Below are positions 8,139-53,036 of a stretch of 64,000 nucleotides of DNA, piece after piece. This DNA comes from Eretmocerus hayati (Eukaryota; Arthropoda; Insecta; Hymenoptera; Aphelinidae). Numbering within the stretch: the stretch's first letter is position 1; each line of letters starts with the position of its first letter. Under the pieces are notes generated by a model. That model was not told the DNA's origin and did no database searches. It worked only from the letters and a program-made list of their open reading frames with translations. The DNA lies in contig CM056743.1 of assembly GCA_029851415.1 (NCBI GenBank), positions 15,988,727-16,052,726 of the forward strand. Reading direction: 5' to 3'. Both the position numbers and the translations under genes were made by a program.

Positions 8139-8804
8139 CTCTCCCGCTGAAAAGGTGTATCATCAAATACGAAATGATAAAAACAATGATGGATGGAAAG
8201 GTGAGTGTACCCAACCTATTACGTCCTCGATCCTGCTTGAACAATTGATAATATACAAAAAATTTGCATGAGAAACATTCGTGTCAAAGAAATGATATCT
8301 CATCCAGGTTTTCCTCTTCATATCTGTATTATCTCAGCGGAAAATCGTTCTACTTCTAGAAATATTCAGGACGTTCCATATATCTATACTCGCTGGATAA
8401 GTGTGATGCACATATCTGAAATACTTGGAACATCATATCAGCTACTTTGGCATCCATAGAGAATTCTTGATGCAAACGTAAAATTTCGAGAGTATCAGAC
8501 AGAGTATCTAAAAAAGCTCTTGGTAAATGGTGATTTTAGAATGCACCTTGGGAAAAATGAATAAAACAATTACCATACAGTCGGAAGATAAGGATGATGA
8601 CCGAAGATAAGGATGATGACACTGGTCTTCAAAATATCTTGGCGTCTCGATTGTCAAATGTACAGAGGGGTGAGTCTTGTATTCTCTCCATTTCAGACTG
8701 GCAAAAACATTGTCTATTCTTATATGTAATAATTCTTCATTCGGTAAATATAAGAATCTTTATGGGTTAGTCGACAGGTAAAAAGTCTAAGCGGGGGGTA
8801 GTAG
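8139..8804 (+). other. Transib interior upstream of recognisable exons
   Basis: This stretch should hold the rest of the transposase gene, but I could not identify the regions carrying the two catalytic Asp residues. There are splice-like signals (for example a GTGAGT after GGATGGAAAG near 8200 and another near 8670) and a short direct repeat of GAAGATAAGGATGATGA near 8590-8620. With only about 660 bp here, a full N-terminal half would not fit, which suggests an internal deletion. Confidence 0.4.
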
Positions 8805-12721: not shown

Positions 12722-12726
12722 CGTCG

Positions 12727-14077
12727 TGGACATCATCTACAACTGCAACAACATCACTGGACATCACTTACTCATACCTCAAGGTTATGTTGCGAGGCAA
12801 ACATAACGCGCTGTCGAATATTGATTTTCGCGCTGCCAAAAATCAATATCCTTTTAACGCCCACGAGAAATATTTTCGCGCGCGCGCTATGTAGTGCGAA
12901 TCGCGGAATTTTTACCTCAATAGGTACCCAGAAACACTTCCCCGGCGCGCCGGGAACTCGCGAAATCTCGCGCGCCCGGACTTCCCGCGCGCCGGTAACC
13001 AGCGCGCCCAGAACCCACTATAGACAGTGCCATACTGATTCGCTGCACTCCAGATCTCTGAAGGAATGATCATGTTGAAGGAGAGCAAGAAAAAATAGTG
13101 TTCGACATTTGAACGAGATTGTCTTTTTTCACTCTCTTGCGTGATAAATCTGACCCTCGCTCCGAAATTTCCGGAGCAAGTAAAAAGAGCGGTAAGAAGA
13201 GAAGAATGACTTCAGATTATATCTTGAACCTATATGGCTAAAAAGCTTGGGCAATGGCTATGGCTAAAAGACTGAAGGCTGTGTGGTCATGTTTTCATGA
13301 TTGTGAAGAATGAAATTCAGAAAAATTGATTCGAGGAACGAAGTTCTAAGTTTGAGGAGTAATCGAATATAAGCATAAAAGAACTAACTTATTCAGAACT
13401 TAGGTAAGTTGATTTTTCACAAAAGTTTGCATTGTACGCATGTTATTTGTTATTCGTGCGTCTCAAACGCATTACTTTTTGAATCATCAGATCATCGTAT
13501 CAAGTGATAGCACAGCAGCGTCTTGATCCTCACACACTGGGGACGCGTTTCTCGCGCGGCAGCGGAGCGCTGCTCGCCTAAGCGCTGGTTTTACGGTAGG
13601 TTTGCGCTGTGTGAGTAGTATGTGCATAAAATAAATAAACCAAACCCATCAACTCATCCTGTTCCCTCGACGTCACGTCGTCGGTTGTCGGCAGTGGGCG
13701 GCACAGTCGACATCAAAGATGAGCATTAGGGCTGGAATCACGAGCGCCACAATCGGCTTGTTGACATGCAAAACAAATTGTAGCATCAATTGTCAACTAC
13801 TTTGTTGATAGAATAATAGTTTTTGGAGATTTTAGTCGAATTGTCAGCTTGACTAAATCTGATATGGCCTGTGATTTGATTATTAATTGAGGAAATAGTA
13901 ACAGTTTGTCGAGTGATTTCGCGAAATTTTATGAAACTCCACCTAGCATAGATTAAGTCTGCATCAGTTCATGACAGTTTTGTCAACTTGAAAAAGTTCT
14001 TCAGCCCTCTTTTCCCTACTTTTGGATTAGATCAAATATGTGATGCTGAAATATGGAGCAGTATTGTTCAACAATTA
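12727..14077. other. No gene; CpG-rich patch and short terminal-repeat motif
   Basis: At about 12880-13030 there is a dense CpG/GCGCGC patch that contrasts with the AT-rich surroundings. At about 13530-13616 a GC-rich segment is bounded by CTCACACA and TGTGTGAG (8-bp inverted ends), possibly a tiny MITE remnant. Otherwise nothing could be assigned. Confidence 0.45.
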
Positions 14078-20200: not shown

Positions 20201-21428
20201 TGTTGTGTCCCAACAGGGACACAACTGGCTTCTCCGAGCGGTTTTAAACTTACAGCCCAATCCACTCCCGTTCGTTTCTGCAGACTCGTTCCAAGAGCGC
20301 GAATTTCTATCGTGCGCTCAAATGCTGTGGGTTGAAGTTGTAGAAGGGCCGTGGGGTTCCCAGATTAAGTATTGAAATACAAGAGCCGTGAGTTGTCTTG
20401 AGAATTACTTTTACTCGAATTCTATACGTGACATTTGAAATTTTCTGGTCGAGAGAACTTTACAGTATCGAGTTACGTGTCAAAAAGCTGCCCAGCAGCG
20501 GTCAGCAGCTATATTCATACAAAAGAGGAAAATCGTGAGCATGCGCCTTTGAAAACTGATTCGTCGTGCCGCGACAGTTCTTATGGAGATCCCGTGTTAA
20601 ACGCTCGATTTTCCATGCGCCGCGCACGGTTTTCTTGATTCTAAATGGGAAGCTCATGTTAAAGTGTTGGCTCGCAGCGCGCCGCACAGCATATCCTTGA
20701 CTCTATACGGCAAGCTTATGTAAAACGATTGACTTTGCTGTGCGCCGCGTAGCGTTTTGACATCGTGAAATAGGAAACCCATGTTAAAAGCGACAATGCT
20801 CAGCGCGCCGCAGCCCCTTTTCTCTAATTCAAATGAAATCTTTATGGCCCGCACGTTTATTCTCGCGCGCTGCATAGCTCCTCTCAATCTGCCACATGAC
20901 TATACATATGATTATTGGTCTCTATCGCGGAGTTCTCCCTACCAGTAGCTAAGGCCAATTAAATTATACAATTTAAATTATACAATTGATTTATAATCAA
21001 TTTCAGTCCCATATATCAGTATAGCCAGATGGATCTTCATTAGTTCATAATAGCCAATCCGGCGTCGGGTAGAACTCAAACAAATTGCAGTCCTGAAGAA
21101 AGTCTCGTCGTATTCACCATCCATGGTTATTGTCTTTATTCGCATAGTTGTCCAGTCAGTCAATTATTTGCGGCTAAATGTCCCTGTAAGAATGATAACT
21201 CGACAGAAATTTGTTCCAACTTATCGTAAATTTCGGAGACCATGTTGCTTTGACTCATTTTATATTGGTAAGCGCGGGTGATATGCTGAGAGGAGATCGA
21301 TTGATCAGAATAAATAATTATTCATAGGTAATTCACACGGCTTTATTCCACGTGTGAAGTTAGCATTAGGAAAATTCAGGGTGTGTTGGACGCCCTCTAT
21401 ACAAGACTAATAGCCGCAGGCTATAACA
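20201..21428 (-). repeat. 3' LTR of the giant retrotransposon
   Basis: 1,228 bp, starting TGTTGTGTCCC and ending CTATAACA in plus-strand reading. It is identical to 51805-53032 except at four positions. One difference lies in the TATA-like box: minus-strand TATGAATATA here against TATAAATATA in the 5' LTR. It contains the same ~62-bp U3 repeats (about 20565-20870). Small open frames inside the LTR are repeated in both copies and are not supported as genes. Confidence 0.95.
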
Positions 21429-21440
21429 GCTCCCCCCACA
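21429..21440 (-). promoter_or_regulatory. Polypurine tract next to the 3' LTR
   Basis: On the minus strand the sequence TGTGGGGGGAGC immediately precedes the LTR start TGTTATAG. A purine run at this place is where plus-strand DNA synthesis is primed in LTR retrotransposons. Confidence 0.75.
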
Positions 21441-24149: not shown

Positions 24150-25745
24150 TTATTTGAGTAAGACTTTCTCGTAACTTACGTTCTTTCTAGCTCGTTCAAA
24201 ATAAGCGGTTGAGCACTCGGCGCACTTGCTGGCATCTTTCTTGACGTAGATTATCGAATTTTTGCAACTACAGCACACAGGCATTATTGGGTTACGATGA
24301 GCGCGGATCAGGACATGTGTCGCCTCGAAGGTGTATCCGGAATGCATCTCTTCATCGAAGCAATTTGCACAGATGCAGCCTCTTTTCTTCTTTTGAAAAT
24401 ATCCAGCCTGTTTGTGTGCCATTTTTTTCAAATCGTGGAAGAAAGGGTGGGACAAATCTGGAGTTCCCCTCTCGGCTTGCCTACGGAGATTCACCCAATC
24501 ATAGCCCTTGAATATTAATCGATCATCGCTTTGTATTGTTTCTCGTGCTGATAATCTAGCTGAATATTTTCGAGCAGGTGCCCGAGGTGCTGGTCGAGAA
24601 TTTTCCCGCGATGACTGTTCCGTCGATAGAGCTCGTCGCTTCCTCTTCTGCCGGATGCTGCGCCCACTTGACGTGGATGGTACATCTTCTACCGGTTTTT
24701 CATGAACTTCTTCAGATGGTCTGTCGGTAACTATAGTTGTTGCGATTTTTGATGCGATGGGCCCTGTATTGGCTGATACATTCCCATCTCTGGCATCTAT
24801 CGAGTCGAATTTTCTTTCCGACGAGTCGTTAGGGTGATCACTTCTTGCCACAATTCTTGCATGCGCGCACATGGCTACTTCTTTCCTTGACCGAGGATCG
24901 TTAATGCCACCCTCACGTTGATTCTTCTTACCACTAGCGAATTGCGGAACAGAATTCACTTCATCATATTCTTTTCTATTCACTTCCTCAACCTTTTCAT
25001 TAATTGAGCGACTTACGTGTTGGTCATCCTCCTGCTGAGGAAAAATCACTTCGTCACTTCCTTTGTCAAGCGGGTGATTTGTGCTTCGTTTTTGCGGCTG
25101 GAGAAAATTCACCTTGTCAATTACTTCATCGTTCGACCGGCTTACACACTGCCCACTCTCTTGCTGAGAAAAACTCACTTCATAATTCTCTTCATCGTTC
25201 GGACGACTTGTGCTCTGTTCTTCCTGCCTAAGAAAATTCACTTCATAATTTTTTTCATCACTAGGACGACCTGTGCTCTGTTCTTTCTGCCTAAGAAAAT
25301 TCACTTCATAATTTTCTTCATCACTAGGGCGACTTGTGCTCTGTTCGCACCCTTGTAGTTCACGTTCGATGCGTCTAACTTCATCTGCATCGGGCGTTGA
25401 CTTGGCCTGCACGACTTCCAGCTCGCCAATTAGTTCTATGCACTCGCCCAAACCCATATTTGCATTTTCTTCGCCAAGATTTTCCTCAGGTAGTAGTCCA
25501 ACCCCGTTCTGTACGTCTATTTCTTCAAATGCTTCAAATAAGTGTGCCCATCTTGGTGATGGAATCTGCGGGTCGAGGGCTATGATGGGCACGTCCGCTA
25601 TAGGATGGCCTTCTTCTTGTTCGATCTCTCTAATCATGTCCGACTCTTCTTCTGTTATTGATATATTCGACGGGATCGAAACGTTATCTAAATCGTTGCT
25701 GAGATCAGACGAATTATGCGCTTGATTTTCATGCTCGTACTCCAT
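24150..25745 (-). CDS. 531-residue accessory ORF with C-terminal Cys cluster
   Basis: This is one long uninterrupted frame on the retrotransposon's sense strand, about 19 kb downstream of pol, starting MEYEHENQAHNSS. Residues 1-130 are acidic. From about 130 to 260 a ~20-residue unit of the type EQSTSRPSDEENYEVNFLRQ repeats about five times. A charged low-complexity middle follows, with a basic RQKRKRRA and proline/arginine stretch near 365-395. The last ~110 residues look folded: YDWVNLRRQ, then CICANC, CCSC and CAEC pairs with His residues between, typical of a zinc-binding domain. I know no family for it. Conservation of a long frame inside such a young element suggests it is functional. 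It could be a Gag- or Env-like accessory protein or a nucleic-acid-binding regulator. A spliced subgenomic RNA would be needed to express it. Confidence 0.7.
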   Translation of the reverse strand: MEYEHENQAHNSSDLSNDLDNVSIPSNISITEEESDMIREIEQEEGHPIADVPIIALDPQIPSPRWAHLFEAFEEIDVQNGVGLLPEENLGEENANMGLGECIELIGELEVVQAKSTPDADEVRRIERELQGCEQSTSRPSDEENYEVNFLRQKEQSTGRPSDEKNYEVNFLRQEEQSTSRPNDEENYEVSFSQQESGQCVSRSNDEVIDKVNFLQPQKRSTNHPLDKGSDEVIFPQQEDDQHVSRSINEKVEEVNRKEYDEVNSVPQFASGKKNQREGGINDPRSRKEVAMCAHARIVARSDHPNDSSERKFDSIDARDGNVSANTGPIASKIATTIVTDRPSEEVHEKPVEDVPSTSSGRSIRQKRKRRALSTEQSSRENSRPAPRAPARKYSARLSARETIQSDDRLIFKGYDWVNLRRQAERGTPDLSHPFFHDLKKMAHKQAGYFQKKKRGCICANCFDEEMHSGYTFEATHVLIRAHRNPIMPVCCSCKNSIIYVKKDASKCAECSTAYFERARKNVSYEKVLLK

Positions 25746-27498: not shown

Positions 27499-29505
27499 AT
27501 CCATGATTCCGTCGTCATCCAAATCATGGATCTCTAGTTTCAAAAAAAAATTTTTAATCTAATCTGAATTTTAGGCTTTGTATTGTGAATTTATCTTGAA
27601 CATTTCAAATATTATGTCGAAATATTGTTTGGATATTATACGCCGTATTTCCCCACTTGAAATCAGGATCTATGATTTCGCTCTCGTCCAAATCATAGAT
27701 CTCAAAATTTTCAAAATTCCTCATCTTCGCCCGATTTCTCAATTCCTTAACGTAAGTTATATCCGAATATGCCAACTTCTATGTAAAAATGATGATTTAA
27801 TACTATAAATCGTATCTTCCAATCGAAATCAGAATCCATGATTTCGCTCTCGTCCGAATCATGGATCTCAAAATTTTTCGAAATTCCTCATCCCCGCCCG
27901 ATTTTTCAATTCCTTAACGTAAATTATCTTCGGATATGCCAGATCCTATGTAAAAATAATGATTTAATTCTATAAATCGTATTTTCCAATCGAAATCAGA
28001 ATCCATGATTTCGCTCTCGTCCAAATCATGGATTTCAGAAATTTTCAAAAATTCCTCATCTCCCCCGAATTTTCAATTCCTTAACGTAAATTATCTTCGA
28101 ATATGCCAGATTCCATGTAAAAATAACGATCTAATACTACAAATCGTATTTTCCAATCGAAATCAGAATCCATGATTTCGCTCTCGTCCAAATCATGGAT
28201 TTCAAAATTTTCAAAATTCCTCATCTCCCCCGAATTTTCAATTCCTTAACGTAAATTATCTTCGAATATGCCAGATTCCATGTAAAAATAACGATCTAAT
28301 ACTCCAAATCGTATTTCCCAATCGAAATCAGAATCCATGATTTCGCTCTCGTCCAAATCATGGATCTCAAAATTTTTTAAAAATTCCTCATTTCCCCCGA
28401 ATTTTCAATTCCTTAACGTAAATTATCTTCGAATGTGCCCGATTCCATGTAAAAATAACGATTTAATACTACAAATCGTATTTTCCAATCGAAATCAGAA
28501 TCCATGATTTCGCTCTCGTCCAAATCATGGATCTCAAAATTTTTTAAAAATTCCTCATTTCCCCCGAATTTTCAATTCCTTAACGTAAATTATCTTCGAA
28601 TGTGCCCGATTCCATGTAAAAAATAACGATTTAATACTACAAATCGTATTTTCCAATCGAAATCAGAATCCATGATTTCGCTCTCGTCCAAATCATGGAT
28701 CTCAAAATTTTTTTAAAAATTCCTCATTTCCCCCGAATTTTCAATTCCTTAACGTAAATTATCTTCGAATGTGCCCGATTCCATGTAAAAATAACGATTT
28801 AATACTACAAATCGTATTTTCCAATCGAAATCAGAATCCATGATTTCGCTCTCGTCCAAATCATGGATCTCAGAATTTTCAAAAATTCTCATTTTGTCCC
28901 GATTTTTCTATTCCCTAATGTAACTCTACCCTTAATATGCTAAACATAATGTCAGATTTGTGTTTAAATATTATAAATCGCAGCTGTCGATTGAAATCAG
29001 AATCCATGATTTCGCTCTCGTCCAAATCATGGATTTCAAAATTTCTTAAAACTCTTATTTTGTCTCGATTTTTCAATTCTCCAATATAAATTGACTCAGA
29101 ATATGCCAATCCTCATGTAAAAAAATGATATCTGAGTATCATAAATCCTATTTTTTCAATCGAAATCAGAATCCATGATTTCGCTCTCGTCCAAATCATG
29201 GATCTCAAAATTCCTAAAAACTCTCATTTTGTCTCGATTTTTCAACTTTCTAATGTAAATTGATTCAGAACATGCCAATTCTCATGTAAAATTTATGTGT
29301 GAATATTATAAATCTTATCTTTCAATCGAAATCAGAATCCATGATTTCGCTCTCGTCCAAATCATGGATTTCAAAATTACAATTTATACCGGTACATTTT
29401 GACTTCTTCCTGTCGACTTTGTTAAAATATTAAGTTAAAGTTAAGTATCATAAATCCTCGTCGAAATCGTGGCCCATGGTCCAGCTCTTATCCAAATCAT
29501 GGGTC
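27499..29505. repeat. ~167-bp tandem array, 13 units each with a conserved hairpin
   Basis: Units of about 165-169 bp repeat from 27499 to 29505; the last spacing is shorter, about 135 bp. Hairpins start at 27499, 27668, 27834, 28001, 28168, 28333, 28500, 28668, 28836, 29002, 29171, 29337 and about 29472. Each typical unit has the arm ATCCATGATTT, an 11-nt loop CGCTCTCGTCC, and the complementary arm AAATCATGGAT. The hairpin is the best conserved part; the AT-rich remainder drifts. In unit 2 both arms change together (ATCTATG with CATAGAT), and in the last unit CCCATG pairs with CATGGG. The array lies in the extra region of the retrotransposon, so it is part of its genomic RNA. Confidence 0.92.
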
Positions 29506-31298: not shown

Positions 31299-31335
31299 TA
31301 TATATATTCTTTCGTACCCCAATTGTATTCAGTCG
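31299..31335 (+). promoter_or_regulatory. TATA box plus arthropod initiator for the JmjC gene
   Basis: TATATATA begins at 31299 and TCAGTC lies at 31329-31334, placing the initiator A at 31331, 32 bp from the first T. This is the classical spacing of an arthropod RNA polymerase II core promoter. It faces right, opposite to the retrotransposon's own transcription, and lies 166 bp upstream of the JmjC start codon. Confidence 0.7.
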
Positions 31336-31496
31336 TTTGTTGATACTCCCAGTTCTCATATCTAGTTGTTTGTTGATCACTTGAGTATTCATAACCTCAT
31401 TCGGCTTCGCAAGAATAACTTCTTTATCGCGTTACAGTTTATCAAGCTCTTTGATTTGTAAAAGTGCAATATCGTATTCCTCGAAATCTTTCCGAA

Positions 31497-33213
31497 ATGG
31501 GTACATTTTCGCCTCCCGAAGATGCTAACCTACCACCCAATGGGCCTTTTCAAAAAATTGTCATCCCGTCTGCAATCAAGGGCAACGCAAAGAGACTTCA
31601 ATATTGTACCTCCGTGTGCGCTCAACTTGATTCACCGGAGTTGCGTGCATCCAAGGTTATCTTCATTCGTGGCGTTTTGGAGTTCACCGAGCCAGAGTTT
31701 GCAGCGATTTTGGACAAGATAATTTACAAAAATCCTGAGCCCATCCCAATCACCGTTATTACGTCTGCACCTTCTCATGCAGGTAAGTTTCATGTAATAC
31801 TAGAGTATCGGCCTATACATTAGCGATTCTACGGTGCATTTTTGCCTACGATATGCATTAAAAAAAAATTTTTATTGTTTCTTTGAAATTAAGCGTGTCT
31901 AAAAACTAAGTTGAACGAAAACATTCGTAGGTGTACGGGTCATAAACAAACAGCCGTATGTTCCGACGCCCGATGCTCCTACGAGTCCTGATGGATTCCC
32001 GAATCATCATCTTGTCGATCTCCTGACTCAAGGATATAACCCTGCATCGCCGCTACCCTCAATAGAGGACATCTTCGACATCTTATCTGCGCGACGTGCC
32101 AGGTCTCTGTATTGTTATAATATTTCACTTGATCATTTGTCCTCTGATTTTGAGGGTTATCTAAATAATGACCCTATTATCCGCACTAGCCAAGTAGATC
32201 CATCTCAAAATAGGCTAGTAGGAATCATGCCAGGTATAAATCGGTCGTTTTTTTATTTTGCTAGCCAATACGCAAGCGGTGAAATGCACATTGAGGATTC
32301 ACTTTTGAAATCGCTAAATCTTCTATACGGTGGTCTCGCAAATCAGCCTAGAGGTGTGCCTATGAAATTATGGATCTTTGTTTTTGATTCTCGAAAATTA
32401 ATATCTGTTATACAGCAATATTATCGCCCCGCAAATAGTAGAGTACACATATGCCAGTATATATATTTGCATAAAAATTTGTTTTTGTCGATTACTTTTC
32501 TCGAAACGTACGGAATTCCATATCACACCTTTTATCAGTATGCTGGTGATTTAGTTTTCATCCAATATAGAGTTTTCCATCAGGTCATCAATCTCTCTCC
32601 GAATCTGGCAGAGGCTATAAATTTTGCTGACGGGTTGTGGAATTATCTGATCCCTCATGTTTTTTCTTGCACTTGCGAGAATATACCTTTTGTCTTGATC
32701 AGTCCCAACCCAGATGCCGATGTTACTTATGTCACTCGTCAATTAGATTATTATCCGTGTTCGAGTGCTCGATGTGAATTTTTCTCACGCTCACCATCTT
32801 CTTTGTTGCAACATTCGCGAGCTGTTCATGGACAGGTGTTCCCTATCCTTGCGTCCAACGAGAGATGGTGTTTGGCGTGCAACCACAGGGTCTTGGTTAA
32901 CAATGCCAGTGAACATATCAAAGGCCATCTTCATTTAGGTAAGCTCCCACTACAGTTTTCATTCTCAGCTTACTCTCGCTTCAACCTGGGAATTTTTATA
33001 GAGAAGAAAAAGCACCTCCCTGTTGGTTGGAATGATACAGCTGGGTTTGGATTGCTTCAGTGCCGCTATTGCAAGGAGTACCAGCTTGCTGTGGAACATT
33101 CTCATCACGCCAAGACCTGCAAAACCAAGCCGTATTACTGCGACGCCCCGTGTCCCTACACCTTCGAGACGAAGCACGGCCTGTCACGTCATATCCGCGC
33201 TAAACACGCTTAG
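31497..33213 (+). CDS. JmjC (KDM4-like) protein with C2H2 zinc fingers, in giant retrotransposon
   Basis: Two exons join in phase: 31497-31782 (ATG in CCGAAATGG, donor CAG|GTAAGT) and 31931-33213 (acceptor TTCGTAG, stop TAG); about 522 residues. A further 63-nt in-frame intron (32939-33001) is possible. Residues ~195-345 match a JmjC fold: PGINRSFFYFAS, then MHIED giving the Fe-binding H-x-E (about H215, E217), FLETYGIPYHTFYQYAGDLV (compare LKKYGIPFDKVTQEAGEF in KDM4), and FHQVINLSPNLAEAINFAD carrying the third ligand (about H312). JmjC enzymes of this type are nuclear Fe(II)/2-oxoglutarate histone lysine demethylases. Four C2H2-type fingers follow, the last containing YYCDAPCPYTFETKHGLSRH. 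The N-terminal ~110 residues are unassigned. The gene lies opposite to gag-pol with its own promoter. Demethylase activity and a role against silencing are inference. Confidence 0.85.
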
Positions 33214-36200
33214 GTAGAACTTCATTTCTCGACTCATTATTTCCCTCGCCGCAGGTTTTTCAAAAGCATTTCTCATTTATAATATGAATCTCTTTTTTTT
33301 TTTCTTCACTAGCAGTGGCTCTTTGAAATCCAATTTCATCGAAATACCTCCTTTGTTATATTGTCCCTTTCTTATCAGAAACGCTATTTTTCAAAATATC
33401 AGCAACATCGATTTTAAACCATCATCAAAATATTATTTAGTTATATGGATTCTCCTTTATCAGAATCACCATCTACGTGGCTTGCTGCGGACTCGAGTGT
33501 GCAGATCCGTCCATCTATCATCATGGCGTCGAAGGGCTCGGATTCGGGCCTTCATAAGATCGATTTTGGCCTATACCCGATGTATCCATGCTGTCGTCTT
33601 CGCAACCAAAATTTGTCGTTCCCGTGGCCTGGTGCAGAGTCTCGAGCCTCCCGAGTTGTCTGTCTGCAAATTGCAATCTCGATCTAGCCAAGAATTGCGG
33701 TCACAACAAGATCGATCTCGAATTTTGCCGATTTATACCCTTTTGGTTTTCCTTTTCCGAGTCAAATGGACACTCTTCGGACCAGGTTTTCTCCACTGTG
33801 GAGTTTTTCCTGTTCCACGGAATCTTATCCGGGCGAATGCGAAGAGAGAGAGTCACTGAAGCTTTAAAATCAGTACTCTCATGTCTAACTTTTATCCAAA
33901 TTTCGTGTAAGGCTAAATAAATGGGTTGCCGTCCATTTATGCCAATTAAGGGTTTTTCATTTTTATCGTTAAGCTTCTTGCAGTATTCGCCTTTTAACGA
34001 AATCTCCTTTTGAATTCCTATTTCAATTTCTCTATCAACAAAATGAATAATGAGCCGATTTTTATTATTTTTACTATTATTGTTTATTTGAGGGGTGCCT
34101 TTTGCGATGGGAGCATCGCCCGACTAGAGTCGTTCCCAAGGTTGAGCCATGGGTGTGGGCTGACGCCGCTGGCACTGATAATCACTTTGTTAGCGAGAAG
34201 ATAGTGAAATTTTCAACATTAAATCAACTTCTATTTAAACTGAGGCACTAATACTCAACAGCCGAGAACTCATAAGTCTACAACAATCTACTGTATATAC
34301 AATGTTCTACCGTTTAATGAGGGATCATCTTCGATGGTTTGGCCACCTTCTATGAGAAACATTATAACAAGAAAGTAATATACAATGTAGAATGCACTCT
34401 GAAGTTGAAGCAGCGCTGAGTACCGCAGATCAGCGAGCTAGCAAATGCACGTATTTTGTACAGTTGATCACGAAAAATTCATTGCGATGAAATCGTCTAT
34501 CTGGTTCCATATCAACAATTAATGGTTGATGATTTCTTATTGTTTTCAAGCTGGTGTCTTGTGGCTCGCACAGAATGTTCACTTCAATCAACTTCTGCTC
34601 TAAATATCAAACTGTGGATCAACAAATATAATTAAATCGGATGTAACCTGTCTCACACTGAGGACGTTGATTAATTCATCAAATTGATTTTTTTTGACTG
34701 AAACATTTGCACGTAAAAAGAGCTTTTGTACATTCATTTCTGTGAATGTCTGAAAACCTGAAGTTCCAATATCTTACAAGCACCAACAAGAACCATATAC
34801 GTCTTCTTTCAAAATTTTGTAAATCGATTGCTACACACAAGCCCTTGCGATGGTGTCAAAACAATCATCAGAATTAAGATAACCAATCACGATTTTTAGT
34901 GGGACCTATATGGATCAAATGTTATGACCCGTGAAGAAATATTTCGATCTTTTTGTGAATACAGAGTCATTCCAATAGATAATTTTTCATCATTTTCGAG
35001 ACTTAGCTGTTTTGAAGTCTAAATATTTCTTCAGAACTGTTGGAACATCGTCCAAAAACTGCCGACTAATCTTAGGTGGCACTCCCGCAAAAGAAATTCT
35101 CTGTCAGCAAATGAGGTATAAAATATATTGATTTCACAAGAATCCGGAATCAATGAGTCTTTCTAGCAAACTCTGGGACTGAGTCCACTCTATCATTTCC
35201 ATGTGGTTCATGAGAACTTATTGAGGTGAGAAATACTAAGTATAAAATTTACTCAGTCGAATCCGTTGAAGCATTATAAATATTTGATATTTTGAATGTT
35301 GCAACTCAAAGACAAAACTGTTGGATTTTCGTAACTCATGGAATTAACATGAAACATATTTCGAATATCGAACATCAACTAACATCATTTTATGAACTCA
35401 TTTTTTTAAGAATCGTGATTTGATCCTATTCATTCTCAAGTGTTATCGCTGGCGAGAATCAAGATTTCGTGCGACTCGTTATTTAATAAACTTTGCACTC
35501 TCAAAACAATATCTTTCTCATAAAACTTTCGATTGTCTCGGTGATAATCTACTTTGTTGGTGATCTTTATTAGAAACCATTCCGATGATACATTGGATTG
35601 TAAAATGTGTACTTTACAGTTAGTTTTGTATTTAATTTACGTCGGGCAAGTGTTGGCTATACATCGCTATAAACTAGATTCGCTATCATAAAATTTTTTG
35701 GATTCGAATTCGTGCCATTCAGAAATCGAAATGCTCCGTCAGATGGAGCATTAAAATATTTTGTCCGGAGGTATGACTCAATATTTTTCGGGGGATTCTG
35801 TAATATATGATTTCCATCAGAGATAATGATGAAAATGATGAAAATGAAACTCTAGATGATTTCATTGCATCAGAGCAATTGTGGTGATAGACGCGCATAT
35901 ATGTAAACTATTATACTTGTTGGTATTGTTGACGAGCTTCCTTCGTGATTTGCGACAACTCACAAAAGTAAAGCAAAATTTCAAGAGAGCTAATCAATTA
36001 TTGCATCTCAAGGTGAGAGAATGAATCGGAAATTCCACGCGTCCATGCCGCAACCATTTCTGAAAGTATCATCGAAATAGAACATTTCGATATAAGGTTG
36101 AAAAACGTGAAACCCGCAACTTATTTTGAGTTACGAAAGGCGAATGTGAAAATCTCATTACATCGGCCTGACATGTGGTAGGCACGATGAAGGTAGCTGT

Positions 36201-44714: not shown

Positions 44715-47700
44715 TCAGTCTGCTCTGGTAAACGCATGCTTCAATTTATCAACGTGAACGACCTTTGTCTTTTGCCCCATCTTTATAAGAACATTCCGAT
44801 CACTAATATGTCGCACAACTTGGAACATACCACTATACTGTCCATCCAATTTTCCAGTCCTGGGTTCCTTCAGAAGGTAAACCATATCTCCTTCGTGGAA
44901 CGTCTGAACATTAGTTTTTCGATCATAGTATTGTTTACTTTTTTTCTTAGCTAGGAGGAGTCTCTCTCTCGAAGTAGCCTGTGTTTCATTCAATTTGGCT
45001 ATTAGGTCATCAAGATAGTCGGAGTATGTCTTTTCGATAACTCGGGTCTCAAAACTCGATGGGAGTCGCGCTTTCCTCCCATAAATCAACTGGTAAGGAG
45101 CAAATCCGTGCCCTGAATGGGTAGAATGATTATATGAAAACACCGAGAAACTGATCCACTGATCCCACTGATTCTTCCTTGAAAAATTTATCAGATATTC
45201 CGTGAATACGTGATGAGAGCGCTCAAGTGAGCCCATAGTTGCTGGGTGAAATGCGGTCGACCTCCATTGGGAAATTTTGAAAAGAGAAGCATTTCTAGCC
45301 ATGAAGGCACTTTGAAAACTACTCCCTTGATCGGTTTTGATAATTCTAGGGCACCCATACCGACATATGAACTCCTTAACAAAAACGGCGGCGATTGTTT
45401 CAGCAGTGTAGTCTTTAAGCGGGTATGCCTCGGAGAACTTCGTTAAATTACACTGCATTGTCAAGATGTATTTATTACCATTCTCAGTTACCGGTAAGGG
45501 TCCCACAATATCGATTTCCACTACTTCAAAAGCTTCCGTCGGCGTGGAAGTGATTTTCATGGGCATTCTAGTTTTGACTCTCCGTAATTTATTTTTTTGG
45601 CAATTTTCACAAGTGCGAATGTAATACTCAACATCCCTTTTCATATTAGGCCACGTGAATCTTTCCCTTAATCTCTTATATGTTTTATATGTCCCCTGAT
45701 GACCTCCAACCGCGGAATCATGGGCTTCTGCTAGCGCTCTTTTCCTATCATCCCCTTCAAGTGTCAAAATCTCCCCTGAACATATCGTCAGCTTAAAGTC
45801 ACCAAGCGTGACAAAGGTTTTCAACGTCATCTCAATGGGTGGCCAGAATAAGTTATCCAAACCATCACCGACGCGTGCCATCCGAACCGATTTTATCCCC
45901 TCGTCCTTTAAGTAATCTCTGAATATCTTAAGACAATGTGATACACACTCTACAGAAGCTGCGTCTCTATGATGCACTTTGATGAAAATTGAAAATATAT
46001 TGTAGTCTCCGAATTCTGTGCGTATTATGTGTCCAATTCCAACGTCTTGAGCTTTAATTACTTCCAAATTGATATATTCCAATTCAACCAACATATGACC
46101 GACAGGTGTATTAATAACACAGTCTAATGACATGAAGTGCAGTATATTGTCCAATTCATCTAAAAGTCTCGTTTGGCTGTATTCAATATTAGTAACGTAA
46201 AATATCCGAGCTGTTCGTACACTCTCGAGTTGTCTCTCGTCATCACTAATTATTCCTTCAATTATCAATCCTTCACTTTGATCAACAATAGGACTCGAAA
46301 TTGTAATGAAGGTAGCATCGCTTGATCTTGCTCTTTTCCGAGCTGTTTCGGGCCATAATACTTCGTCCATCGAGCGCTTAGCCCTCAATTGTTTCATAAT
46401 ATTCTCGTCAACCCTCAATCGAGATTCAAACCAGACTTCTGCCCCTGGTGGCACCACTCCATCTCTATATGTTCTATAATCGTCTCGATCGGTTTTCGCA
46501 GGGCTGTATACAGACAGCTGATTCGCCGCATGCTTGGATGTGGCACCAACTGAATGGATCACCCTTTCCGATGCGGAAATTTTCAATTCATGGTTTTTTC
46601 CCACAGTATCGTCATTCTCATTCTCTTTATGCATTCGATAATCGTCTCGATCGGTTTTCGTAGAGCTATATACAGACAGCCGGGATGCCGCATGCTTTGA
46701 TGCGGCACCAACTGAATGGATCACTCTTACCGATGAGGTAAGTTTCAATTCGTGATTTCTTTTCACAATATCATCATTCTCTTTCTCAATTTGCAACCCG
46801 TCTCGGCTGATTCTCGCGGGGCTGTATACAGATGACCGCTCGTCCACATGCGCCACTGTGGAGTCAGTCAAATGGATCACCCCAACCAGCGAGGGGTGAT
46901 TGTCAGTAATAGTGTCACTCTCAATTTCGTCAACACCTTTCATCATATTCAAGCCATCAACTTCCTCGTATCTCAATTTCTCATTATCTTCAATTCTCAC
47001 AATATCGTCCGACCATGCGGGCCCTTGTCTTATCGATGGACTGCCTCCATTTCTCACTGAATCATCCGACCAATCGGGTCTTCGTTTTTTCGATGGACTA
47101 CCTTCATTCTCTCCGTCCACCCCCCTCACTCGGTGTTTGCGTGTAGTACGTAAGTCTGTCGTATTGCCGTTCGTCTCGGGTTTTTTCAGGATGTTAGTAA
47201 GAGGATCGGTATCACTGTCATTGTCGTCAGAGTCATTTTTGTCATCTGTAATGGCGAGAACAGGGTTTCGGGAGAGCGAGTCTGCGTTCATATTGATTTT
47301 CCCGGGTTTATGAACGATAGAGAAGGTATATTCTCGCAATTTAATCCTCCAACGTGCCAATCGAGACATGGGATCTTTAAGAGAGTGTAGCCATACCAAT
47401 GGTCGGTGGTCGGTTACCAGCGTAAATTCTTTGCCATACAAATACGGCCTGAAATGGCTCGTTGCAAATATGATAGCCGTCAATTCCTTCTCAATTGTGG
47501 AATAATTTCGTTCTGATTTCGTTAGAACTCTTGATCCGTAAGCTACAGGTAAATCTCGGCCAATAGGACCTTGGCTCAGCACGCATCCCAACGCGAAATC
47601 AGAACTATCAGCGGTCACGACGAAAGGACGAGAGAAATCTGGATATTGTAACAGTGGCTCGGAGCACAGCGTCTTTTTCAATTTCTCAAAAGCCTCCTCT

Positions 47701-49343
47701 TGCCCATGATCCCAAAAAAAAGGTACATTCTGTTTCAACAAGGTTGTCAACGGTTTTGCTATACTAGCAAAGTTAGGGATGAATCGTCTATAATATCCTG
47801 CTAAACCAAGAAATTGTTTCACGTTCTTTGGAGTCTTCGGACGTGGGAAGTTTGATACTGCTGATAACTTTTTAGGATCTGGTCTGACGCCACTTTCAGA
47901 TATGATGTGCCCCAAATAACCGACCGATTTTCTCAAGAATTTACATTTGCTGGGTTGTAACGTCAGCGAAGCTGTTTGTAGTCTACCAAAGAGTTTTTTC
48001 ATTTTCTCAGAGTGCTCACGAAGGGTTTTTGAATAACATATTGCGTCATCCATATAGATCAGAATTTCGGTACCTTGGAGACCGTTGCAAATTTTGTTCA
48101 TAGTTTCCTGAAAAAATCCTGGCGAGCCCTTTAAACCCATCGCTAATCTTCTGAATTGGAGGTGCTGGTACTGAGTGCTAAATGCGGTTTTTCCCCTAGA
48201 TTCCCTAGCTAGGGGAATTTGATAGAAGCCCTGGGCCAAATCTAGGGTCGAAAAGTACTGACACTGACCAAGCCGATCAAGGATGTCGGTAATATTTGGC
48301 AACGGGTATGCTGAAGCAATTGATTTTTCATTAAGGGCGCGAAAATCCACGACAAGTCGGTACTGTTTATTACCTTTAGCATCGTCTTTCTTGGGTACTA
48401 TCCACAGAGGAGAATTATAGGGTGATGAGGAAGGCTCTACTATATCGTTCTCAATTAATTCATCGACTTTCTCTTGAATGACCTTTTGCAAATGTGGCGG
48501 GTGTCTGTATTGCTTGATATTTATCGGACTCTCATCTATAGTCTTTATTTCGTACGCAGCTGCGTTAGTTAAGCTAAGTTTGTCACCAGGTAAATGAAAA
48601 ACATAGGGGAATTTGGCAACTAGACTTTTAACACTATCTTTTTCCTCCTCATTCAATTCCTCTAAATCTAATTCTTTCATGATTCTTTCTATCCGGTCCT
48701 GAATCACCCTATCCTTCTCCTCCTTAGGAATTTGTCTTATAGAGTTCACATATCGGTTTCTTTTCACATCGTAATCGTAAACTGTTAGCGGCGGCAAAGT
48801 AAGGTTCACATCCTCAGATGTGGAATTTATCACGAACATATATGCCCATCCACCGCGATTCTCTATCAAACACTCCCCCGCGAAAATATCTGGTCCCACA
48901 TTAATGCGAGGCACATACCCTGTATGTAAATTAGTATCCTTCAATTTTAGCTTGCAAAGAGTTTTTGATCTAGCCGTTAGACAAAATGTGTTGTGGACTG
49001 AAAAAGGTATAGGAACATTGGCGCAATTCTCCAAGATCATGAAATTGTTTTTAAATGATAGAAGGGCTCCTTGTTCTCTTAAGAACTGAATGCCAAAAAT
49101 TCCGTCGTACGGAATGGGAAACTCTGCTGGGACCATATTCATTATGCAATTCGTGTTTCCGAAACGAATGATACTTTCTCCTATAGTAGATAGCATCTCA
49201 TGGCCGATGCCCGCTAGTCCGAAAACACGTCCCGCGAAAACTTGCACATGAGTCGCGAGCATATTAATCTTCAACAAATTCAATTCTGATCCAGTGTCTA
49301 TCAATAATATGACATCGCGATGAATCAAATCCGGACTACGCAC
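44715..49343 (-). CDS. pol: Ty3/gypsy Pol polyprotein with macro-like insertion
   Basis: This is an intact frame of 1542 residues as counted from 49343. The frame is open further upstream and overlaps the end of gag by at least 60 nt in the -1 frame, so it is probably expressed by -1 frameshifting. Order: aspartic protease (LLIDTGSELN, Asp16); reverse transcriptase (about 280-480, with YMDD at 430-433); RNase H (VVTADSSDFALG, Asp578, and VTDHRPLVW, Asp645); a ~500-residue insertion; integrase H2C2 zinc finger (H1208, H1215, C1245, C1248); DD35E core (EIDIVGPL D1278, KTDQGSSF D1338, MGSLERSH E1374); and a C-terminal GPY/F-like part. The insertion has three ~55-residue repeats with RVIHSVGA(A/T)SKHAA near 820-945, then a macro-like domain at about 1045-1195. 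RNase H and integrase are normally separated by a short linker, so this Pol is unusually long. Confidence 0.95.
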   Translation of the reverse strand: MRSPDLIHRDVILLIDTGSELNLLKINMLATHVQVFAGRVFGLAGIGHEMLSTIGESIIRFGNTNCIMNMVPAEFPIPYDGIFGIQFLREQGALLSFKNNFMILENCANVPIPFSVHNTFCLTARSKTLCKLKLKDTNLHTGYVPRINVGPDIFAGECLIENRGGWAYMFVINSTSEDVNLTLPPLTVYDYDVKRNRYVNSIRQIPKEEKDRVIQDRIERIMKELDLEELNEEEKDSVKSLVAKFPYVFHLPGDKLSLTNAAAYEIKTIDESPINIKQYRHPPHLQKVIQEKVDELIENDIVEPSSSPYNSPLWIVPKKDDAKGNKQYRLVVDFRALNEKSIASAYPLPNITDILDRLGQCQYFSTLDLAQGFYQIPLARESRGKTAFSTQYQHLQFRRLAMGLKGSPGFFQETMNKICNGLQGTEILIYMDDAICYSKTLREHSEKMKKLFGRLQTASLTLQPSKCKFLRKSVGYLGHIISESGVRPDPKKLSAVSNFPRPKTPKNVKQFLGLAGYYRRFIPNFASIAKPLTTLLKQNVPFFWDHGQEEAFEKLKKTLCSEPLLQYPDFSRPFVVTADSSDFALGCVLSQGPIGRDLPVAYGSRVLTKSERNYSTIEKELTAIIFATSHFRPYLYGKEFTLVTDHRPLVWLHSLKDPMSRLARWRIKLREYTFSIVHKPGKINMNADSLSRNPVLAITDDKNDSDDNDSDTDPLTNILKKPETNGNTTDLRTTRKHRVRGVDGENEGSPSKKRRPDWSDDSVRNGGSPSIRQGPAWSDDIVRIEDNEKLRYEEVDGLNMMKGVDEIESDTITDNHPSLVGVIHLTDSTVAHVDERSSVYSPARISRDGLQIEKENDDIVKRNHELKLTSSVRVIHSVGAASKHAASRLSVYSSTKTDRDDYRMHKENENDDTVGKNHELKISASERVIHSVGATSKHAANQLSVYSPAKTDRDDYRTYRDGVVPPGAEVWFESRLRVDENIMKQLRAKRSMDEVLWPETARKRARSSDATFITISSPIVDQSEGLIIEGIISDDERQLESVRTARIFYVTNIEYSQTRLLDELDNILHFMSLDCVINTPVGHMLVELEYINLEVIKAQDVGIGHIIRTEFGDYNIFSIFIKVHHRDAASVECVSHCLKIFRDYLKDEGIKSVRMARVGDGLDNLFWPPIEMTLKTFVTLGDFKLTICSGEILTLEGDDRKRALAEAHDSAVGGHQGTYKTYKRLRERFTWPNMKRDVEYYIRTCENCQKNKLRRVKTRMPMKITSTPTEAFEVVEIDIVGPLPVTENGNKYILTMQCNLTKFSEAYPLKDYTAETIAAVFVKEFICRYGCPRIIKTDQGSSFQSAFMARNASLFKISQWRSTAFHPATMGSLERSHHVFTEYLINFSRKNQWDQWISFSVFSYNHSTHSGHGFAPYQLIYGRKARLPSSFETRVIEKTYSDYLDDLIAKLNETQATSRERLLLAKKKSKQYYDRKTNVQTFHEGDMVYLLKEPRTGKLDGQYSGMFQVVRHISDRNVLIKMGQKTKVVHVDKLKHAFTRAD

Positions 49344-49369: not shown

Positions 49370-50695
49370 CTACGGGTTGTTCAAGGAGGGCACGGTTTTG
49401 GACGACGGCTGTCCAACAAGAGGCGAGCTCGTCTTTGCCCCCAACAGACGGTCGCGATTCCCGTTTAAATTATTTTCTTGAGGGGCTCGTTCCAGTGACA
49501 AACGTTGCCTACACCCGTTGAAAGAATGGCCCACTCTACGACAGAAATTACAATACTCCTCAGAACGATTCACCATACGCCCCGTACTGCGATTAGGAGG
49601 TCGACGCAATTGTTCACAAGTTACTATGGAATGTCCGGATTTATTGCAATAAGTGCAGAAACGTCTATTCCCGTACGGTGCTCGTTTAGTCCTGCACTCG
49701 CGGGAGTAATGTCCAAAATTTGAGCAATTATAGCATTGTATTTTCGATTTATCAAAATCTCTCTTGCTCTCGGGTTTAACCGTATCGTCAATTTTCTCAA
49801 TGGCATGGCAAAACAGACGCCGTGGTTTAGCGTCCACCGAAGCTCCCAAATATCGTCTTTGTTCTAGCCGTCTTTCTAAATCGCTGGCTGTGCCAATTGC
49901 ACTCTCGAGAGAGGTGAAAACGCGCCCCAAAATCATTTGAGCTATTTCGGTTTTCAGTCCTAGCACAAAACAGTCGATCGCGGTCGTAGTAAGGCCCTCA
50001 ATAATACCTTGCGCGACCGAGGCTTCAAACCCACCATTCACCAGTTCTACCCCCCTATTGAGCATATTGGTCACACGCAGGCCATAGTCGGTCACCTTCT
50101 CCTCCTCTTTTTGGATCACGCGAGCTAGGTCAACTTGCAATTGAGGCAAACTCTGGGCAGACGAGAAGGTCCTCTTTAGACATTTTACGAATTCATCAAA
50201 AGTCGTGAAAATTCGTCCTTGCATATGAGCTCTAGCTGGCTCTACAATCTTGGATTTAACAAGTTCTAAGAAGAAATCTTTATCAGTGGGGTCTACGAAT
50301 CTCTCGGCGTTTTTACACTCGCGAATAAATTGATCCACCGTAGTATCACGACCATTGAAGGTTGGTAAAATTTTTACCACATCGGTGGCTTTCCTCACCG
50401 TGCAGCGAGAAGTATGATCATTGTTTCGCACGGTCGTGTTACCGTCATTCACAGAGACAGGGAAAACGAAAGGGCTGCTGCCCATAAGATTATTGAATCG
50501 GTTGGTCTCCATCGAGCCAGGATCCAGACCGGAAGATTGGATGGACGCAACGGACCCCTGTTCCCCCACAGTATTGGCATTATCGTTATTTTCGTTTGAA
50601 TTCATAATGTTCATCGGTAACCCCACAGGATCAGAAATAGTGGGCCTCACCGATTCAGTTACGCCGGGTTTTCGATTTCTTCCTCTCAGCATCAT
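49370..50695 (-). CDS. gag: Gag polyprotein with three zinc knuckles
   Basis: 441 residues. The N-terminal ~100 residues are low complexity. Residues about 101-285 form the capsid-like part (VVKILPTFNGRDTTVDQFI, then an Arg/Glu-rich end). Three CCHC knuckles follow: CYNCSNFGHYSREC (321-334), CTYCNKSGHSIVTC (347-360) and CNFCRRVGHSFNGC (382-395). Gag packages the element RNA into cytoplasmic particles. It starts ATG ATG CTG, 41 nt inside the end of the upstream coiled-coil ORF and in another frame. Its 3' end overlaps the pol frame. The assignment is secure. Confidence 0.93.
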   Translation of the reverse strand: MMLRGRNRKPGVTESVRPTISDPVGLPMNIMNSNENNDNANTVGEQGSVASIQSSGLDPGSMETNRFNNLMGSSPFVFPVSVNDGNTTVRNNDHTSRCTVRKATDVVKILPTFNGRDTTVDQFIRECKNAERFVDPTDKDFFLELVKSKIVEPARAHMQGRIFTTFDEFVKCLKRTFSSAQSLPQLQVDLARVIQKEEEKVTDYGLRVTNMLNRGVELVNGGFEASVAQGIIEGLTTTAIDCFVLGLKTEIAQMILGRVFTSLESAIGTASDLERRLEQRRYLGASVDAKPRRLFCHAIEKIDDTVKPESKRDFDKSKIQCYNCSNFGHYSRECRTKRAPYGNRRFCTYCNKSGHSIVTCEQLRRPPNRSTGRMVNRSEEYCNFCRRVGHSFNGCRQRLSLERAPQENNLNGNRDRLLGAKTSSPLVGQPSSKTVPSLNNP

Positions 50696-51053
50696 TTCCG
50701 CTTCTGTCGATATTCTCGAGAGATGATTTTATTTCTTGTTTGATTTCTGCTATGTACTTTTCAAGACTATCATTCGATAACTTAACCAACTCTAACATAT
50801 CCTTAAGGACAGGCAGAATAGAAGTATACTTGCTCCCAAGTTCGACAAGTTCCCGAGTGATGTTAAATTGAGCGTCCTGATCCTCCGAGTTGATATTATA
50901 CTGTTCGCCAAAAAGATCATCTACTTCGTTCATTCGTTTCGAAAGATCACGCACATTCGATTCACACGAGCTTACTGCCTTTTCAAGTTTCTCAAGACGC
51001 GTCAAAATTTCGCTCATCTCCGAGGTCATGCCGACAGAATTGAAAATACCCAA
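50655..51053 (-). CDS. Small coiled-coil ORF upstream of gag
   Basis: 132 residues, beginning MGIFNSVGMTSEMSEIL. The body is a run of heptad-like helices (LTRLEKLEKAVSSCESN, then LVELGSKYTSILPVLKDM), ending in a basic tail with ERKKSKTRRN. It resembles a coiled-coil oligomerisation module. It ends 41 nt past the gag start in a different frame, so it may be the N-terminal part of Gag joined by frameshifting, or a separate protein followed by re-initiation. No family is recognised. Confidence 0.6.
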   Translation of the reverse strand: MGIFNSVGMTSEMSEILTRLEKLEKAVSSCESNVRDLSKRMNEVDDLFGEQYNINSEDQDAQFNITRELVELGSKYTSILPVLKDMLELVKLSNDSLEKYIAEIKQEIKSSLENIDRSGNDAERKKSKTRRN

Positions 51054-51226: not shown

Positions 51227-51724
51227 TCAGCAGTCGTTACGTCGTGAAGTTGAGGGTTGTTCCTCTCCGGAAAAGGTAGTTTCCTCTTCTTCGTTGATAT
51301 TGGCCAAGGTAGGGCGAGTGCTCAAATCCAGAGCAGTAAGATCTGCGTAAGCTCGAGTACGTGGAAGATTTGATGGCACGGAGAATTCGTCTCCCAAATG
51401 TGGAAATGGCCTAGGCTGGTCTCGGGCTTTGTTGGCGTAATAGCCCTTTAGGGCACCTTTGAGGGCGAGTAATCGGGCCTCGCCGCAACCGATGCGCTTA
51501 CTCTGTGGTTCTTTGGCGCGTAGGTCCCTGATGAAAGCTTCTTGATCCGCTATCTGCTTCAAAATCTGACTCTCAATGTCGGGTTTCGATGAGTTATCGT
51601 GTTGAACAGCCTCGTTGATTTGGTCGTCGATAACTTCAACCAGATGGTCGAAAGCGCGTCGAGCTTCCTCGCTGGTCATTGATGAATTCCGAACGCCAGA
51701 TGTAAATGGCAGCGTTCGGCTCAT
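51227..51724 (-). CDS. First ORF after the primer binding site, unknown
   Basis: The frame is open from inside the 5' LTR, but the first Met after the primer binding site is at 51724, giving about 165 residues beginning MSRTLPFTSGVRN. It is helical and charged (MTSEEARRAFDHLVEVIDDQ, then DIESQILKQIADQEAFIRDL), with a KRIGCGEARLLALKGALKGY block and a polar C-terminus rich in Glu, Ser and Thr. A 173-nt gap separates it from the coiled-coil ORF. Its place as the first coding unit of the genomic RNA suggests a leader or matrix-like role, which is inference. Confidence 0.6.
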   Translation of the reverse strand: MSRTLPFTSGVRNSSMTSEEARRAFDHLVEVIDDQINEAVQHDNSSKPDIESQILKQIADQEAFIRDLRAKEPQSKRIGCGEARLLALKGALKGYYANKARDQPRPFPHLGDEFSVPSNLPRTRAYADLTALDLSTRPTLANINEEEETTFSGEEQPSTSRRNDC

Positions 51725-51779
51725 AAATGGTTGGTTCTCTCTGGATAAGTGATTTTGCAACTCTTCTTGCTCCTCTGGA

Positions 51780-51799
51780 GAATCCCACTTCTGACACCA
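51780..51799 (-). promoter_or_regulatory. Primer binding site, tRNA-Leu
   Basis: The plus strand here reads GAATCCCACTTCTGACACCA, the expected 3' end of a eukaryotic tRNA-Leu including CCA. The minus strand is therefore complementary to that tRNA. It starts 5 nt inside the 5' LTR boundary at 51805, a normal offset for reverse-transcription priming. Confidence 0.9.
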
Positions 51800-52113
51800 A
51801 AATTTGTTGTGTCCCAACAGGGACACAACTGGCTTCTCCGAGCGGTTTTAAACTTACAGCCCAATCCACTCCCGTTCGTTTCTGCAGACTCGTTCCAAGA
51901 GCGCGAATTTCTATCGTGCGCTCAAATGCTGTGGGTTGAAGTTGTAGAAGGGCCGTGGGGTTCCCAGATTAAGTATTGAAATACAAGAGCCGTGAGTTGT
52001 CTTGAGAATTACTTTTACTCGAATTCTATACGTGACATTTGAAATTTTCTGGTCGAGAGAACTTTACAGTATCGAGTTACGTGTCAAAAAGCTGCCCAGC
52101 AGCGGTCAGCAGC

Positions 52114-52123
52114 TATATTTATA
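52114..52123 (-). promoter_or_regulatory. TATA-like box in the 5' LTR
   Basis: The minus strand reads TATAAATATA, downstream of the U3 repeats and about 300 nt before the LTR end. The corresponding site in the 3' LTR (20510-20519) reads TATGAATATA. Confidence 0.6.
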
Positions 52124-52164
52124 CAAAAGAGGAAAATCGTGAGCATGCGCCTTTGAAAACTGAT

Positions 52165-52475
52165 TCGTCGTGCCGCGACAGTTCTTATGGAGATCCCGTG
52201 TTAAACGCTCGATTTTCCATGCGCCGCGCACGGTTTTCTTGATTCTAAATGGGAAGCTCATGTTAAAGTGTTGGCTCGCAGCGCGCCGCACAGCATATCC
52301 TTGACTCTATACGGCAAGCTTATGTAAAACGATTGACTTTGCTGTGCGCCGCGTAGCGTTTTGACATCGTGAAATAGGAAACCCATGTTAAAAGCGACAA
52401 TGCTCAGCGCGCCGCAGCCCCTTTTCTCTAATTCAAATGAAATCTTTATGGCCTGCACGTTTATTCTCGCGTGCT
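52165..52475 (-). repeat. ~62-bp U3 repeats (enhancer-like) in the LTR
   Basis: Four to five units, each with GCGGCGC on the minus strand (plus-strand GCGCCGC at 52221, 52283, 52345 and 52409, spacing 62, 62 and 64) and a TTTAACATGGG-like segment. They lie just upstream of the TATA-like box, where LTR enhancers usually sit. The same array is in the other LTR at about 20565-20870. Confidence 0.75.
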
Positions 52476-53036
52476 GCATAGCTCCTCTCAATCTGCCACA
52501 TGACTATACATATGATTATTGGTCTCTATCGCGGAGTTCTCCCTACCAGTAGCTAAGGCCAATTAAATTATACAATTTAAATTATACAATTGATTTATAA
52601 TCAATTTCAGTCCCATATATCAGTATAGCCAGATGGATCTTCATTAGTTCATAATAGCCAATCCGGCGTCGGGTAGAACTCAAACAAATTGCAGTCCTGA
52701 AGAAAGTCTCGTCGTATTCACCATCCATGGTTATTGTCTTTATTCGCATAGTTGTCCAGTCAGTCAATTATTTGCGGCTAAATGTCCCTGTAAGAATGAT
52801 AACTCGACAGAAATTTGTTCCAACTTATCGTAAATTTCGGAGACCATGTTGCTTTGACTCATTTTATATTGGTAAGCGCGGGTGATATGCTGAGAGGAGA
52901 TCGATTAATCAGAATAAATAATTATTCATAGGTAATTCACACGGCTTTATTCCACGTGTGAAGTTAGCATTAGGAAAATTCAGGGTGTGTTGGACGCCCT
53001 CTATACAAGACTAATAGCCGCAGGCTATAACAGATT

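Follow-up and report, generated by a model that had tools for sequence, protein, structure and literature searches.

A recently inserted, apparently complete Ty3/Gypsy retrotransposon in the genome of Eretmocerus hayati carries, antisense to its own genes, an open gene for a KDM4-like JmjC protein with four zinc-finger-like units. It was found in a window of 64,000 nucleotides, i.e. the whole stretch of DNA that was analysed. The host of this DNA is E. hayati, and the product of the JmjC gene equals a protein deposited for this wasp. We regard it as very probable that element and gene together have the anatomy described here (Table 1). From its residues the protein is predicted to be an active 2-oxoglutarate (2OG) oxygenase, which we consider likely, while the chances that it is a histone demethylase are judged to be about even. 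That it is a DNA-targeted lysine demethylase and counters the silencing of its own element is a reading with slightly less than even chances; it is the role that we find most likely, but an inference.

Table 1 Features of the retrotransposon and its JmjC gene (positions in the window)
Feature	Position	Strand	Basis or remark
3' LTR	20201..21428	-	1228 bp, TG...CA, polypurine tract adjoins, GATT outside
Polypurine tract GTGGGGGGAGC (minus strand)	21429..21439	-	beside 3' LTR, read from sequence
Extra ORF, 531 aa, cysteine-rich C-terminus, internal 63-bp repeat	24150..25745	-	element sense strand
12 inverted repeats, 165-169 bp apart, consensus ATCCATGATTT-N11-AAATCATGGAT	27499..29369	.	tandem array
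TATA box TATATATA at 31299, arthropod-type initiator TCAGT at 31329	31299..31333	+	motif scan
Exon 1, 95 codons + 1 base	31497..31782	+	spliced product
Intron, 148 bp, GT-AG (GTAAGT...TAG), phase 1	31783..31930	+	junction spanned by QAD02_000675 match
Exon 2, JmjC residues 203-327, four zinc-finger-like units 370-521	31931..33213	+	stop at 33213
AATAAA, candidate polyadenylation signal	33916..33921	+	~700 bases past stop
Possible fossil of second JmjC copy, 26 codons	38104..38181	+	family profile match
pol, 1542 aa, with RT, RNase H and integrase; DTG motif of a protease by eye	44715..49343	-	open
gag, 441 aa, CCHC zinc knuckle	49370..50695	-	open frame
Primer binding site TGGTGTCAGAAGTGGGATTC (minus strand)	51780..51799	-	interior side of right LTR, read from sequence
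5' LTR	51805..53032	-	1228 bp, TG...CA, right flank starts GATT

The element spans 32.8 kb and has its coding sense on the minus strand. What identifies a Ty3/Gypsy retrotransposon is present: paired LTRs with TG...CA ends, a target site duplication (GATT, outside both LTR ends), primer binding site, polypurine tract, gag and the pol domain order with RT-RNase H before integrase. The two LTRs show 4 differences over 1228 bp (99.7% identity). For gag, the Pfam family PF00098 was detected above its cut-off (1.1e-4) and PF03732 below it (5.3e-4). For pol, PF00078 (9.1e-31), PF17917 (4.2e-36), PF17921 (1.2e-21) and PF00665 (1.6e-8) were found. Among the 120 of 1456 pol matches listed, some are insect proteins that bear the names transposon 17.6, 297 or 412, and no pol of E. 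hayati is named.

The initial annotation had placed the JmjC gene antisense in a retrotransposon. This was borne out: the element reads on the minus strand, and the gene occupies the plus strand of the region that separates pol from the 3' LTR. Its two exons, described before as consistent in phase, indeed join in phase and without internal stop to a product of 522 aa, which is identical end to end to the deposited protein QAD02_000675. The genome report on this whitefly parasitoid describes annotation by de novo prediction on the repeat-masked genome, homology and RNA-seq (PMC10482854). Codon usage compared with gag-pol gave a weak signal, with 0.002 for the exon 2 frame and -0.15 to -0.33 for the five other frames. 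The TATA and TCAGT motifs, proposed earlier as a promoter, were found again, with TCAGT 168 bp ahead of the ATG. When TATAWAW followed by a TCAGT starting 26-35 bases on was used as pattern, this was the sole occurrence on both strands of the 23.3-kb element interior, in two overlapping registers.

The antisense orientation has two consequences. The genomic RNA contains the gene in antisense, so that the intron stays unspliced there and survives reverse transcription, and for the same reason the gene requires a promoter of its own for expression. An intron in sense direction would disappear at the first round of retrotransposition. Antisense placement is thus a route for an intron-containing gene to ride in a retrotransposon, and the promoter-like motif ahead of the JmjC gene fits the predicted use of a promoter of its own.

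A JmjC profile search, which had been suggested beforehand as a check, was positive: PF02373 matched with E=1.5e-10 and 42.0 bits at a cut-off of 24. Likewise, the H-x-E...H pattern in KDM4-like context seen in the initial annotation was retrieved as H215-I-E217 and the distal H312, the Fe ligands, and KDM4-type structures matched best. In the search of solved structures with the single sequence, KDM4C ranked first (3.1e-8), followed by JMJ13 (1.4e-4) and KDM5 (1e-3); with a profile of seven family members, Rph1 (2.5e-10) and KDM4D (about 5e-9) were found. KDM4-type names (KDM4A-D, JMJD2, JHDM3, Rph1) are borne by 36 of the 37 profile matches at E<=1e-6, the remaining one being named 2-oxoglutarate oxygenase only. 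As 2OG residues of KDM4A we take N198 (asparagine), K206 (lysine) and Y132 (tyrosine). N225 of the window protein aligns with the KDM4 asparagine; the candidate for the tyrosine, Y156, was assigned by reading, as the alignments do not extend to it. The C-H-C-C zinc site of KDM4 is represented by C270, H276, C342 and C344. The stretch AEAIN, presumably part of the lysine pocket, is identical in KDM4D, and Phe202 stands at the place of a KDM4 tyrosine, which we take to be a lysine-pocket residue. AlphaFold reached a mean pLDDT of 38.9 for the full protein (7-row alignment) and 32.0 for the exon-2 core (6 rows), too low for a usable model; the alignments were probably too shallow.

Four C2H2 fingers had been described for the gene. 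Behind the JmjC domain four finger-like units were found, of which those at residues 370-395, 408-430 and 497-521 are C2H2, while the third (471-492) is C2HC; the fourth unit has three residues between its cysteines, which is a long spacing. In the window protein all finger profiles stay below the Pfam cut-offs, and one relative, P0005, exceeds the cut-offs of two of them, PF12171 and PF00096. The Cys and His residues of the first two units are invariant in all seven family members.

This family was obtained by two protein searches over 5.77 billion sequences with 5479 and 6124 candidates; shared short words were needed, so remote kin may escape. Beside the window protein six relatives were identified, every one from E. 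hayati and, judged by the lengths of their contigs, distributed over all four chromosomes. A decay of all other copies, which had been named as an outcome speaking against the gene, was not seen: P0002 (55% identity) and P0006 (33%) are full length and keep the Fe and zinc residues. P0003, P0004, P0005 and P0007 are shorter models; the HxE site is missing from P0004 and P0005 and the last fingers from P0003 and P0007. Thus, many copies seem to decay. PF02373 was above the gathering score in four of the five relatives scanned, but not in P0004. When residues were counted with the window copy and without members gapped at the site, the Fe-binding H and E are conserved in 5/5 and the distal H in 6/6. 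The 2OG asparagine occurs in 5/6, the exception being P0005, where the site falls into the uncertain beginning of the model. The first zinc Cys and the zinc His are found in 6/6 and the other two zinc Cys in 7/7; in AEAIN, A and N are kept in 7/7 and I in 5/7. Since annotated proteins are intact by choice, this conservation can at most suggest selection.

Two pairs of relatives are almost identical over long stretches, and the members of each pair lie on different chromosomes. P0002 and P0004 are 97% identical across 193 aa, with 85% across another 127, and P0003 and P0005 share 95% over 203 aa. This points to recent copying, as mobile genes would show. In the P0003 model, unrelated residues switch to family sequence exactly at G96, the intron position of the window gene, which suggests that both genes have this intron position in common. 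Relatives in viral contigs were also sought; 172 pattern matches were obtained and none was confirmed. The association of gene and element was seen with the window copy, the six relatives being known as proteins.

A segment of host DNA with a member of a wasp-specific JmjC/zinc-finger family could have been captured as a passenger, intact through youth and useless to its carrier. We consider this unlikely, but it is the best of the alternatives. The 4 differing sites among 1228 in the LTRs left little time for decay, the divergent members (33-55% identity) may be ordinary host genes, and in the remaining interior, 11.5 kb from the gene to pol and 2.7 kb past the 531-aa ORF, no domain was recognised, as would be expected of captured junk. 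In contrast, mobility of the family itself is suggested by the two pairs whose nearly identical members occur on different chromosomes, and an antisense promoter-like motif together with an intron is the configuration that functional cargo would need. Furthermore, a possible second JmjC fossil on the same strand of the same element suggests a long association. This stretch of 26 codons scored 14.8 bits against the family profile, compared with 5.4 for the next non-gene stretch in the window, and none of 200 shuffles reached its score (best 8.5). It resembles the family around the distal iron histidine, with Arg in place of the histidine. It may stem from a second, decayed JmjC gene of the element, but it is short and was given little weight.

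Some JmjC proteins are known not to be demethylases. The window protein could be an anti-heterochromatin or transcriptional regulator, a structural or specialised JmjC protein which is targeted by its fingers and does not demethylate histones; to this we assign a lower probability than to passenger capture. The JmjN domain is part of known KDM4 enzymes, and none was detected when the full protein (E<=1) and exon 1 (E<=10) were compared with Pfam, where a diverged form is conceivable. Therefore, the protein is labelled KDM4-like, not KDM4, and filed under JmjC. The comparison with KDM4 residues proposed in the initial annotation was positive for the Fe triad and N225 and gave no uniform pairing for the lysine. 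K241, in a KxW motif, pairs with the KDM4D lysine in three of five printed profile alignments. In 2w2i it is shifted by one position, and in Rph1 and the three printed KDM4C alignments of the single-sequence search it is unaligned. The pairing hinges on gap placement, which makes K241 as 2OG lysine less certain; if it is this lysine, an insertion of ~8 residues precedes it relative to KDM4D. Counted as above, the KxW lysine is present in 5/6 family members, with Glu at the K241 position in P0003. These points favour a protein that does not demethylate. Against it stands the complete set of Fe and zinc residues and 2OG asparagine in the window copy, P0002, P0003 and P0006, which is hard to explain without catalysis.

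The gene might also be the cargo of a DNA transposon nested in the LTR element, which is very improbable. DNA transposons with 2OG dioxygenase cargo are known (PMC12730594), and five inverted-repeat pairs (I14, I16, I18, I19, I20), among the 25 of 38 listed, flank the gene. However, with a length of 19-27 nt, a complementarity of 70-89% and arms separated by 11-14 kb, these pairs could be due to chance. Moreover, no transposase or envelope family was found at E<=0.05 in 46 further element ORFs of at least 75 codons, i.e. 43 from the interior (two of them overlapping exon 1) and three from the region near gag; separate scans covered gag, pol, exon 2 and the 531-aa ORF. With flanking pairs that are short, imperfect and distant and no transposase family found, the idea was set aside.

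Even less credit is given to a composite locus, in which the LTRs would stem from separate insertions and enclose host DNA with the JmjC gene, since in spite of a length about three times that of ordinary Gypsy elements and of many pol relatives on contigs of 5-12 kb (among the 120 of 1456 matches listed), GATT occurs on both outer flanks (chance about 1 in 256), the primer binding site stands at one inner junction and the polypurine tract at the other, the LTRs are 99.7% identical and self-comparison of the interior gave no further LTR-like pair.

In the reading that we prefer, the protein would act against the silencing of its own element. The element would carry an antisense accessory gene with its own TATA/Inr-like promoter and one intron, encoding a KDM4-like JmjC dioxygenase combined with zinc fingers. 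The enzyme part would demethylate lysine in dependence on Fe(II) and 2-oxoglutarate, with H3K9me2/3 as best-guess substrate, and the fingers would target it to DNA, by analogy with REF6. Repressive histone methylation on the element would be lowered and the element transcribed. Fly Gypsy elements are silenced by H3K9me3 under small-RNA guidance, and a targeted H3K9 demethylase would lift silencing of this type. Enzymatic activity, substrate, DNA targeting and counter-silencing effect are all predictions from the protein and its position. With its youth and its open gene, KDM4-like and equipped with zinc fingers, the element would allow the resistance of animal transposons to histone-based silencing to be studied by simple tests on one defined protein and locus.

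A tandem array of 12 inverted repeats lies in the same element. Nine of its units are identical; the unit at 27668 has matching changes in both arms, that at 27834 has one mismatch and that at 27499 has 10-base arms. When ten units, i.e. all except the first and the last, were aligned, 29 of 33 columns in the inverted-repeat block were invariant versus 58 of 133 outside it, the block having been picked after inspection of the data. In a permutation over all 33-column windows, the observed 30 invariant columns were reached in 0 of 2000 cases, the best permuted value being 27. None of 500 mononucleotide shuffles gave an inverted repeat as long as the 11 bases of the consensus unit; three of them reached 10. 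The array may bind a protein or form an RNA hairpin. Possibly it is a docking array for the JmjC protein, the link between both being their location in the same element. A complete antisense anti-silencing cassette, consisting of a finger-targeted JmjC demethylase, promoter, intron and the 12-repeat array as docking site, is doubtful and ranks behind the more general reading and also slightly behind a JmjC protein without demethylase function. If it were true, a retrotransposon-borne, sequence-guided histone demethylase would be the animal chromatin counterpart of plant VANC. It may then also have helped to drive the recent Gypsy expansion in E. hayati, for which an LTR insertion burst in the last 1 My, mainly of Gypsy elements, is reported in PMC13116730.

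Several known systems share traits with the window gene. In Rph1, a JmjC protein of KDM4 type, C2H2 fingers are present; VANC is not known to be a JmjC protein. KDM4 (JMJD2) and yeast Rph1 (PDB 3opt), the best-scoring solved structures, have in common with the window protein the JmjC core HxE...H, the 2-oxoglutarate asparagine and the C-H-C-C zinc site. The window protein differs from them by low identity, gap-dependent lysine pairing, Phe for the pocket Tyr, no JmjN detected and neither PHD nor Tudor domain among its Pfam matches, and its gene lies inside a retrotransposon. REF6/JMJ12 of Arabidopsis is described in PMC7105484 as a JmjC demethylase with four zinc fingers and sequence-specific DNA binding. 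The likeness to the window protein, JmjC plus four fingers, is one of architecture; in contrast to the window gene, REF6/JMJ12 is a plant host gene, and its product demethylates H3K27me3/2.

Divergent multi-exon KDM4-like JmjC genes are known from endogenised giant viruses of Amoebidium, and an avoidance of silencing through the host's chromatin is suggested for them (PMC11244446). They resemble the window gene as KDM4-like JmjC, multi-exon genes in parasitic DNA, but they belong to a giant virus of a protist, contain the JmjC domain alone and are not located in a retrotransposon. In fungal DNA transposons, TET/JBP dioxygenase cargo is reported to aid, presumably, the escape from silencing (PMC12730594); here, hosts are fungi, carriers are DNA transposons and the target is DNA methylation. 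For the Arabidopsis VANDAL elements, VANC is described as an element-encoded, sequence-specific anti-silencing factor with targets that are often tandem repeats (PMC5735166). A conserved inverted repeat in tandem arrangement is a feature of the E. hayati element, too. VANC, however, causes loss of DNA methylation, and an array binding by the JmjC protein is a possibility. DNMTs have been incorporated in dinoflagellate and charophyte retrotransposons (PMC5890265). They lie within coding regions and add a mark, whereas the E. hayati gene is separate, antisense and intron-bearing and would remove one. Thus, chromatin enzymes in mobile DNA are already known. A JmjC gene in an LTR retrotransposon was not found in the titles and abstract openings of the open-licence papers listed, and the words JmjC and demethylase are absent from the main text, as far as available, of the E. 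hayati genome papers PMC13116730 and PMC10482854.

The element contains further open frames. For the 531-aa ORF on its sense strand, searches of Pfam, PDB and NCBIfam gave nothing significant. A kinship with the JmjC protein was rejected, as BLASTP against the family, with composition correction off, was weak (best E=0.006 for P0003; 6.1 for P0001); the ORF and the JmjC gene share one 27-base stretch in opposite sense. At the gag end, ORFs of 132 aa (50655-51053) and 199 aa (51227-51826) were found on the minus strand, the latter extending into the LTR. The 132-aa ORF gave weak coiled-coil-like matches, and no Pfam family was above cut-off in either of the two.

Outside the element, a GIY-YIG nuclease-like fragment was detected at 61121-61465 on the plus strand (PF01541, 20.6 bits at a cut-off of 22.6), which perhaps belongs to a Penelope-like element. 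Two inverted pairs were also observed in the window. The first (7192-8140 and 11918-12731) has a length of about 810 bp with 94% identity and contains internal repeats; the second (61822-63309), also a repeat, has a length of about 640 bp with 87% identity.
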